DNA of 43,618 nt, from positions 1 through 43,618 of the forward strand of contig JAKAMT010000007.1 in the NCBI GenBank assembly GCA_021812705.1, written 5' to 3'. Each line of letters opens with the position of its first letter. The first letter of the stretch is position 1. This stretch comes from Bacteroidota bacterium (GTDB lineage Bacteria; Bacteroidota; Ignavibacteria; Ignavibacteriales; Melioribacteraceae). Below are positions 1 to 4,207 of this stretch, piece after piece. The notes beneath the pieces are model-generated. The model was not told where the DNA came from. It searched no databases and worked only from the letters and a program-made list of their open reading frames with translations. The position numbers and the translations under genes are program-made.

Positions 1-108
1 TTTGTGTTTCCTGTTATGCTGAGAAATGCGCTGTTCAAGATTTGAGGTACAGCCAATATAATGACGGTTTTTATCGGATTGGAGTATGTAAACAAAGTAA
101 TCCTGCAT
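1..108 (-). CDS. GIY-YIG nuclease family protein, N-terminal part only (runs off window start)
   Basis: Reverse complement reads MQDYFVYILQSDKNRHYIGCTSNLEQRISQHNRK; identical to 343-450 except base 100 vs 442 (synonymous GAT/GAC). Confidence 0.8.
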   Translation of the reverse strand, partial: MQDYFVYILQSDKNRHYIGCTSNLEQRISQHNRKHK

Positions 109-112
109 AAAT

Positions 113-138
113 AAAAAACCCCAAATTTCTTTGGGGTT
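113..138 (-). terminator. Rho-independent terminator (copy 1)
   Basis: AACCCCAAA-gaaa-TTTGGGGTT followed by TTTT on the minus strand. Confidence 0.75.
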
Positions 139-147
139 ATTTAATTG

Positions 148-215
148 TGGGGGCTGAAGGATTCGAACCTACGACCCCTCCGACTTCGTCGGAGTGCTCT
201 GAACCAACTGAGCTA
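148..215 (-). pseudogene. tRNA-Val-like remnant: T arm, D arm and 3' acceptor strand kept, 5' acceptor strand missing, anticodon arm replaced by palindrome CTCCGACGAAGTCGGAG
   Basis: Matches the 490-564 tRNA outside the anticodon arm; 178-194 is a perfect 7-bp/3-nt-loop palindrome; the 5' acceptor strand is replaced by GIY-YIG coding sequence. Confidence 0.85.
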
Positions 216-450
216 GATATTCTTTTGCTTTTAACCAATTCTTCAAACTTTTCAAATACTTTTCTAATTTCATTGCAGAATTTTTATCCACTGTTTTGTA
301 TGAAATCAAAACAGACCATGTTTCGGTTGTACCGGTAAATCCTTTGTGTTTCCTGTTATGCTGAGAAATGCGCTGTTCAAGATTTGAGGTACAGCCAATA
401 TAATGACGGTTTTTATCGGATTGGAGTATGTAAACAAAGTAGTCCTGCAT
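169..450 (-). CDS. GIY-YIG nuclease family protein (93 aa) whose C-terminus is encoded by tRNA-like sequence
   Basis: YVYILQS..HYIGCTSNLEQRISQHN..LEKYLKSLKN is a GIY-YIG signature; the tail AQLVQSTPTKSEGS is the translated D arm and palindrome. Confidence 0.8.
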   Translation of the reverse strand: MQDYFVYILQSDKNRHYIGCTSNLEQRISQHNRKHKGFTGTTETWSVLISYKTVDKNSAMKLEKYLKSLKNWLKAKEYLAQLVQSTPTKSEGS

Positions 451-454
451 AAAT

Positions 455-480
455 AAAAAACCCCAAATTTCTTTGGGGTT
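455..480 (-). terminator. Rho-independent terminator downstream of tRNA-Val (copy 2)
   Basis: Same AACCCCAAA/TTTGGGGTT hairpin plus T-tract, offset by 342 bp from copy 1. Confidence 0.8.
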
Positions 481-489
481 ATTTAATTG

Positions 490-564
490 TGGGGGCTGAA
501 GGATTCGAACCTACGACCCTCTGCTTGTAAGGCAGATGCTCTGAACCAACTGAGCTAAGCCCCC
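490..564 (-). tRNA. tRNA-Val (anticodon TAC)
   Basis: Minus strand GGGGGCTTAGCTCAGTTGGTTCAGAGCATCTGCCTTACAAGCAGAGGGTCGTAGGTTCGAATCCTTCAGCCCCCA folds as a cloverleaf; loop CTTACAA. Confidence 0.92.
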
Positions 565-660
565 GTTAAGGGTAAATCAAAAAGAACTTCAAAATTTGCG
601 CATCAATTATAGAACATTTATGCGTGAGAAACAATACATAAGAAAAATATTTTATAAGAG

Positions 661-733
661 AGCGGGTGACGGGACTCGAACCCGCGACTTTCAGCTTGGG
701 AAGCTAACACTCTACCAACTGAGTTACACCCGC
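661..733 (-). tRNA. tRNA-Gly (anticodon CCC)
   Basis: Minus strand GCGGGTGTAACTCAGTTGGTAGAGTGTTAGCTTCCCAAGCTGAAAGTCGCGGGTTCGAGTCCCGTCACCCGCT; loop TTCCCAA. Confidence 0.92.
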
Positions 734-745
734 ATATTTTTTTAA

Positions 746-807
746 GAACCCGCGACTTTCATCCCGCCCTTGGCGGGATAACACTCTACCAACTGAGTTA
801 CACCCGC
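746..807 (-). pseudogene. tRNA-Gly-like remnant, 5' part up to the T loop, with palindrome TCCCGCCAAGGGCGGGA in place of the anticodon loop
   Basis: Identical to tRNA-Gly from the 5' acceptor through GGGTTC except for the 17-nt palindrome at 762-778; the 3' end is absent. Confidence 0.85.
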
Positions 808-3706: not shown

Positions 3707-4207
3707 ATGAAAAGGAGAAAAATGAAAAAGTTAAGAATATTCCAATTTATTTTTGTAATGATATCATTATGCAGCACTTTGAGCGCCCAGGGAAAACCTG
3801 TTCAGCTTGCGTTATTCAATCCCATTCAGCTCTTCAGCGAGAACACTTCTATCACCGGTTTGAGACTCAGCCTTATCTATGGAAAGAATACAAGCGTAAC
3901 AGGATTGGACTGGGGATTAGTGAGTCACACTACATCTGGTACCTCAACCGGCGTACAATTCGGATTTCTCGGCATAAATGAAGCAGACTTCATCGGCTGG
4001 CAGGATACCGGCATAAATATAAATCACGGCAGCTTCGAGGGACTTCAATTGGGTCTTGTTAATTATGCCGGCGCTGTAAATGGCGTTCAGATTGGATTTG
4101 TCAATTATGCCGCGAATATGAAAAAGGGGCTGCAAATTGGAATTGTGAACATTATTAAGCAGGGTGGCCAGTTCCCGTTTTTCCCGATTGTCAATTGGGC
4201 GCTGTAG
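3707..4207 (+). CDS. LA_2272-like surface repeat protein
   Basis: Signal peptide, then repeated GLQLGLVNYAG / GVQIGFVNYAA / GLQIGIVNI units. Confidence 0.6.
   Translation: MKRRKMKKLRIFQFIFVMISLCSTLSAQGKPVQLALFNPIQLFSENTSITGLRLSLIYGKNTSVTGLDWGLVSHTTSGTSTGVQFGFLGINEADFIGWQDTGININHGSFEGLQLGLVNYAGAVNGVQIGFVNYAANMKKGLQIGIVNIIKQGGQFPFFPIVNWAL

Follow-up and report, generated by a model that had tools for sequence, protein, structure and literature searches.

A displaced tRNA-Gly copy with a palindromic anticodon arm and its possible link to tRNA-specific GIY-YIG elements

Two tRNA genes with displaced, hairpin-bearing copies

The first 807 nucleotides of the window (the whole 43,618-nucleotide stretch of DNA that was analysed) hold an intact tRNA-Gly gene and an intact tRNA-Val gene, each accompanied by a displaced partial copy of itself in which a palindrome occupies the anticodon arm. 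The features, all of them on the minus strand, are as follows.

746–807, minus strand: displaced remnant of tRNA-Gly(CCC), made up of tRNA positions 1–29, a hairpin and positions 41–56; flanks 100% identical to tRNA-Gly
762–778, minus strand: 17-nt palindrome TCCCGCCAAGGGCGGGA, TCCCGCC-AAG-GGCGGGA, in place of 11 nt of the anticodon arm (read from the sequence)
734–745, minus strand: AT-rich 12-nt spacer TTAAAAAAATAT between the remnant and the intact tRNA-Gly (read from the sequence)
660–733, minus strand: intact tRNA-Gly(CCC) (ARAGORN, 660–733; Rfam, 661–733, 69.4 bits)
489–564, minus strand: intact tRNA-Val(TAC), the putative target of the Val cassette (ARAGORN, Rfam)
459–480, minus strand: terminator-like hairpin after tRNA-Val (hairpin scan)
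169–450, minus strand: GIY-YIG nuclease ORF of the Val cassette (PF01541, E 2.6e-14, above the cut-off)
147–215, minus strand: displaced tRNA-Val remnant, made up of positions 8–28, a hairpin and positions 46–76
178–194, minus strand: palindrome CTCCGAC-GAA-GTCGGAG, replacing arm positions 27–43 (17 nt for 17 nt)
117–138, minus strand: second copy of the terminator hairpin (342-bp tandem unit)
1–108, minus strand: second GIY-YIG copy, truncated by the contig end

Read along the minus strand from 807 to 746, the Gly remnant starts at the 5' end of the tRNA, runs through the D arm and ends in the T loop at GGGTTC, and the spacer and then the intact tRNA-Gly follow. Direct reading and BLAST thus agree with the sequence, coordinates and geometry given in the original prediction. 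Eleven nucleotides of the tRNA-Gly arm, GCTTCCCAAGC, are swapped for 17 nt that form a 7-bp stem with a 3-nt loop, and the predicted lengthening of this hairpin to 10 bp is borne out by outer A-T, T.G and T-A pairs, one of which is a wobble. Through the retention of these outer three arm pairs the Gly(CCC) remnant represents a variant geometry. The predicted lack of a GIY-YIG ORF at the Gly copy also holds, none being present beside the remnant either in the window or on C212, another contig of this assembly; the catalytic domain (PF01541) is present at the Val locus and not at the Gly copy.

The Val case with which the Gly copy had been compared is equally real, with CTCCGACGAAGTCGGAG at 178–194 standing in place of exactly arm positions 27–43 of tRNA-Val. 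Here the intact tRNA is succeeded by a terminator, a GIY-YIG gene, a tRNA copy that bears the hairpin, another terminator and the second GIY-YIG copy, repeating with a tandem period of 342 bp and with 1 mismatch over the 177-nt overlap. Two GIY-YIG frames, at window 169–450 and at C203:2914–3180 (L045), draw their C-terminal residues and stop codon from tRNA DNA, which is the tRNA-Val remnant in the first case and the intact tRNA-Ser in the second.

On C212, which is ∼94% identical to the window over the tRNA region, the Gly remnant occurs twice in tandem with a 75-bp period, each copy bearing the hairpin at the same place with the loop ATA instead of AAG. C212 probably derives from a second strain in the bin. 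A decayed stretch at window 883–997 matches a small ORF beside the C212 tRNA locus (L044:972–1086), and window 3689–4248 matches L044:1–560, the gene at 3707–4207 of the window sitting near the tRNAs on C212. Between the two contigs, then, this locus has undergone rearrangement.

Geometry and distribution of the remnants

The window contains 6 GC-rich hairpins with a stem of at least 7, against 2.6 per 43.6 kb under a Markov null, and four of the six lie within the first 800 nt, two of these being copies of one terminator. Across the whole assembly the pattern CCGCCNNNGGCGG gave 41 matches compared with 3 for the reversed control pattern. At 40 distinct pattern sites that were inspected, tRNA-matching flanks were found by BLAST in 14 and ∼20 tRNA remnants were recognized by eye, counts that are non-exhaustive because the remnants of the genome came from searches and from the stretches around named loci. 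Hairpin remnants lie beside tRNA-Gly, Val, Asp, Ser(TGA), Ser(GCT), Ser(CGA), Thr(GGT), Thr(TGT), Pro, Met, Lys, Leu and Phe. Most of the remaining pattern sites are intergenic short-repeat arrays, and about half of the TCCCGCC-type hairpins lie outside tRNA loci, so these palindromes are not exclusive to tRNA remnants. One such second, non-tRNA home of the palindrome family is a AGTATCCAG-like short repeat whose intergenic arrays carry hairpins of TCCGCC/CCCGTC type, on contigs C62, C108, C159, C160, C163 and at the end of C239 (L055, L065, L137, L138, L139, L142). A different arrangement was seen at L008 (C59), 1–405, where a 122-bp unit is repeated three times in tandem after tRNA-Phe. Every unit contains two 7+3+7 hairpins, one TCACGCC-type and the other CTGTGGC-type, as well as a terminator-like hairpin and an inverted T-arm piece.

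Placed on tRNA coordinates, 64 hairpins fall in the anticodon region (42), the T region (16) and the D region (6). The family of palindromes proposed by the original prediction is therefore tied to tRNA copies with the anticodon arm as its main site, but the junction is not always at the anticodon loop, since T-loop (16/64) and D-loop (6/64) hairpins occur as well. In the commonest event the whole 17-nt anticodon arm (27–43) is lost and a 17–20-nt hairpin stands in its place; exactly this replacement is seen in many of the 25+ remnants, which span many isoacceptors and phyla. A second event is the pure insertion of a 22-nt double hairpin between T-loop positions 56 and 57 (C212 Val, C130 Thr, L110 Ile and L122 Gly), and D-loop hairpins occur in tRNA-Ser and tRNA-Asp remnants. 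The predicted 7+3+7 class proved to be the commonest form but one among several, with stems of 6–8 bp, loops of 2–5 nt and the 22-nt double hairpins also represented. Loci L067–L135 were chosen by the TCCCGCC pattern, and stem conservation among them is accordingly no evidence; in the set free of that bias, from L214 on, the stems are TCCCGCC, TCCCGAC, TCCCGAT, CTCCGAC, CTCCGAT and TTCCGAT, with pairing kept and loops variable. Growth of the stem from the tRNA's own arm was rejected, given that unrelated tRNAs share the stem TCCCGCC. Because the palindrome sits in a displaced duplicate with an intact copy adjacent, the event includes the duplication or insertion of a tRNA. The interpretation first put forward, taken as a whole, is partly supported.

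The kept cloverleaf length (17 nt for 17 nt) and the conservation of pairing while sequence varies are what one might expect if the remnant were a functional tRNA-like RNA, an anticodon-less decoy or regulator that selection maintains and in which the hairpin does the work. We consider this highly unlikely, given that the remnants are truncated at either end with one acceptor strand missing, that their presence and copy number differ among close strains and that the palindrome has no effect on the predicted folding of the downstream tRNA-Gly (0.303 vs 0.305). The same fold test leaves unsupported the idea of the hairpin as an insulator that shields the folding of the downstream tRNA.

Hairpin-bearing broken tRNA copies beside intact tRNAs are found in Ignavibacteria, in Bacteroidota and in several other phyla. 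Outside the phylum, Zixibacteria, Kiritimatiellae, Verrucomicrobia and candidate-phylum genomes contain remnants of the TCCCGCC-hairpin kind, and within Bacteroidota the isolate Muriicola marianensis (L121) carries one. The draft state of the assembly, with its 277 contigs and apparent strain mixture, would lend itself to an assembly artefact or to an ordinary pseudogene with a chance palindrome. However, the structure recurs in that isolate and in three single-contig genomes (G029, G057, G063), and the 41 matches against 3 for the control argue in the same direction, so that we give this explanation almost no credence. As a marker of the system the strict pattern is too narrow, retrieving 5 of 398 genomes of the phylum, and a GIY-YIG search revealed other stems; the exact form is thus patchy. 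Pattern matches in the same-class genome G309 lie where those of an uncultured Ignavibacteria bacterium lie in its contigs (L090, L093), so that the window and this bacterium appear to share a class. Of the 69 pattern loci found in other genomes, many lack a neighbouring tRNA, above all those from GC-rich genomes, and these probably match by chance.

Loci lacking the palindrome, which the original prediction had proposed to look for in close relatives, are present both in same-genus relatives and on another contig of this assembly. In five genomes of the genus the Gly-Val pair is there but the Gly remnant is not, and the closest of the five retains an apparent decayed trace of a Val remnant. 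On contig C196 a tRNA-Thr(TGT) has nothing upstream, and its counterpart on C10, with a 96% identical flank, has an upstream remnant with D-loop and anticodon hairpins; the DNA downstream differs between the two.

GIY-YIG genes and tRNA isotypes

This genome has ∼10 small GIY-YIG genes, 6 of them at tRNAs; beyond the Val locus, such genes lie at tRNA-Ser(TGA), Ser(GCT), Pro and Asn. A search that was independent of hairpins, using the GIY-YIG domain against 119 genomes of the phylum, retrieved 29 loci, of which 22 have a tRNA within 600 bp and 20 a remnant of that tRNA. A hairpin is readable in all 20 remnants, imperfect or AT-rich in three of them (L215, L226, L229), and no hairpin-free remnant was found among these 20 GIY-YIG-linked loci. 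At most nuclease-side loci the GIY-YIG gene lies between the intact and the broken tRNA copies.

The original prediction had set the Gly copy, with its 5' side kept, apart from the Val copy, with its 3' side kept. The two do differ in this way in the window, but both forms share single loci elsewhere: at L228 and at L217 5'-type remnants and a 3'-type remnant with the same stem occur together with an intact tRNA and a GIY-YIG gene. Judged from these sequences, the 5'-retained (Gly) and 3'-retained (Val) forms appear to be two faces of one system, and because L228 and L217 hold both remnant types the nuclease-free Gly scar can be tied to the GIY-YIG system, if indirectly. The examined stretches of five further 5'-type loci (L078, L096, L115, L121, L133) likewise hold no GIY-YIG gene.

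The nuclease lineages are bound to tRNA isotypes. On a tree of 30 GIY-YIG domains, built from a short alignment and with many unresolved forks, the 12 isotypes require 13 changes (minimum 11) compared with a mean of 21.4 when isotypes are shuffled, and 0 of 500 shuffles came as low as 13, a signal that is partly fed by the shared ancestry of neighbouring genomes. With near copies removed the figures are 13 and 18.5 (0/500), the count is still 13 after the addition of 17 further sequences, and the Val, Pro and Met groupings unite different families. The link between lineage and hairpin site (anticodon or not) is weak, at 6 changes vs 8.6 (17/500). Tandem arrays are not confined to the window, the tRNA-Ala locus of G295 having a Val-like array with a 337/338-bp period. 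In G053 (C34:6985–9748, partly L227) eight tandem GIY-YIG copies ∼364 bp apart lie downstream of a tRNA 3' end, and the remnants of this array have one or two TCCGCC hairpins each.

An alternative history would have tRNA copies arise by ordinary tandem duplication, with independent mobile mini-hairpins of a genome-wide palindrome family later entering or replacing the arms of the non-functional copies, which would tolerate such insertions, and the GIY-YIG genes as passengers or occasional partners. It would accommodate the same-type hairpins at non-tRNA intergenic repeats, the several remnants with no GIY-YIG gene nearby and the variation of stems by genome rather than by nuclease lineage. Set against these are the hairpin-bearing remnants at 20 of 29 loci that were found independently of hairpins, with none hairpin-free, the recurrence across phyla of the exact 27–43 and 56/57 positions, the tracking of isotype by nuclease lineage and the other hairpins that flank the Y1 transposases of this genome. 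We therefore regard this history as somewhat unlikely.

A proposed self-restoring cassette and comparable systems

The Gly feature probably represents a disarmed fragment of tRNA-Gly, displaced by an insertion that restores its own target as tRNA-specific GIY-YIG homing cassettes would do. A cassette of this type would contain part of a tRNA gene, a hairpin and usually a GIY-YIG endonuclease gene. Its nuclease would cut one tRNA gene, presumably in the anticodon arm or, in other lineages, in the T loop, and repair of the break would copy the cassette in by homing, so that an intact tRNA is rebuilt from host and cassette DNA while the host's old tRNA half is pushed aside, joined through the hairpin. 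Keeping tRNA homology in its flanks only, and with a strong hairpin at the former nuclease site, the displaced half could no longer be cut; the hairpin would also shorten the direct repeat, or make it less perfect. That protection is the role of the hairpin is a tentative proposal. Since the intact tRNA would be rebuilt each time, insertion or amplification could be repeated, giving tandem arrays. At the Gly locus of the window the 5'-type scar alone survives, the nuclease gene being absent, and for want of a GIY-YIG ORF there we class it as the likely product of an element rather than as an element. Of the features of a free-standing GIY-YIG homing endonuclease element, the wider system shows the catalytic domain, a nuclease lineage bound to a linked target gene, and empty and occupied alleles in close relatives.

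Several observations count against the cassette model. The rebuilt tRNA should remain a target of the nuclease; the Gly locus and several 5'-type loci have no GIY-YIG gene; and hairpins are also found in non-tRNA repeats. Moreover, the T loop is intact in some remnants, and two or three hairpins are present in some, so that a rule of a single hairpin for each cut site would oversimplify.

Taken more broadly, the prospects seem evenly balanced that these loci represent an undescribed and widespread class of mobile element, namely ∼0.35-kb isotype-specific GIY-YIG cassettes that rebuild the tRNA, lock the displaced half with a hairpin in place of the nuclease target, form arrays and leave nuclease-free scars. 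If so, it would account for broken tRNA copies and small GIY-YIG genes in Bacteroidota, Ignavibacteria and some candidate-phylum genomes, would supply compact nucleases with natural isotype specificity and would make testable how a homing element survives in an essential gene that it leaves intact. Mobile DNA inserts preferentially at tRNA genes. In the open literature that was searched we found no element with a nuclease alone that divides a tRNA gene, restores it and leaves a hairpin in the cast-off half, and no prior description of the arrangement of hairpin-scarred tRNA and GIY-YIG gene in open-access papers, the nearest being SegB and the mitochondrial hairpin elements.

SegB of phages T4 and T6 is a free-standing GIY-YIG homing endonuclease (PMC13096335; PMC2988022). 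In T6 it lies in a tRNA cluster, cuts inside tRNA genes at the motif RAWTSGAAC and drives tandem amplification of a segment with tRNA and segB (PMC13096335). This motif is the complement of the T loop GTTCGAATY (Val form), and the T-loop hairpins described here fall in that sequence; the T loop of the window's tRNA-Val fits the motif and that of tRNA-Gly, GTTCGAGTC, fits it incompletely. Common to both systems are a GIY-YIG gene among tRNA genes, a motif that matches the T loop and tandem amplification of tRNA and nuclease. However, SegB is phage-borne and sits between two tRNA genes, whereas the cassettes here are chromosomal and isotype-bound and split and rebuild one tRNA, and the main text of the SegB paper, which contains neither 'palindrom' nor 'truncated tRNA', describes no hairpin-replaced tRNA remnant (PMC13096335). 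By analogy, the GIY-YIG cassette system may work like a SegB-type homing element.

GIY-YIG endonucleases also accompany group I introns in the anticodon loops of tRNAs. These introns resemble the cassettes in inserting with function retained and in their related nuclease domain, for which TIGR01453 gave a match below its cut-off, but there splicing keeps the tRNA functional, whereas here duplicated tRNA DNA does so; a group I intron in a tRNA was rejected for the window, where Rfam gave no match besides tRNA. Islands and phages that integrate into tRNA genes through tyrosine integrases carry part of the tRNA in the inserted DNA and so rebuild an intact gene. The cassettes share this restoration and differ in that no integrase is seen, the unit is ∼0.35 kb or less and a hairpin lies in the displaced half. 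Mitochondrial double-hairpin elements and rickettsial palindromic elements are likewise short palindromic inserts, hairpin pairs included. Those are bare inserts, whereas here the hairpin takes the place of an arm within a displaced tRNA copy and has a nuclease gene linked to it. REP/RAYT systems are alike in dispersing short palindromes in a bacterial genome, but the location here is fixed to tRNA arms, and an origin from RAYT/REP was rejected given that all four Y1 genes of this genome have other hairpins. At one of its Y1-type transposase genes (L166, C120) the flanks hold four TGACTCC-GGA-GGAGTCA-like palindromes, which are REP-like and distinct from those linked to tRNAs.
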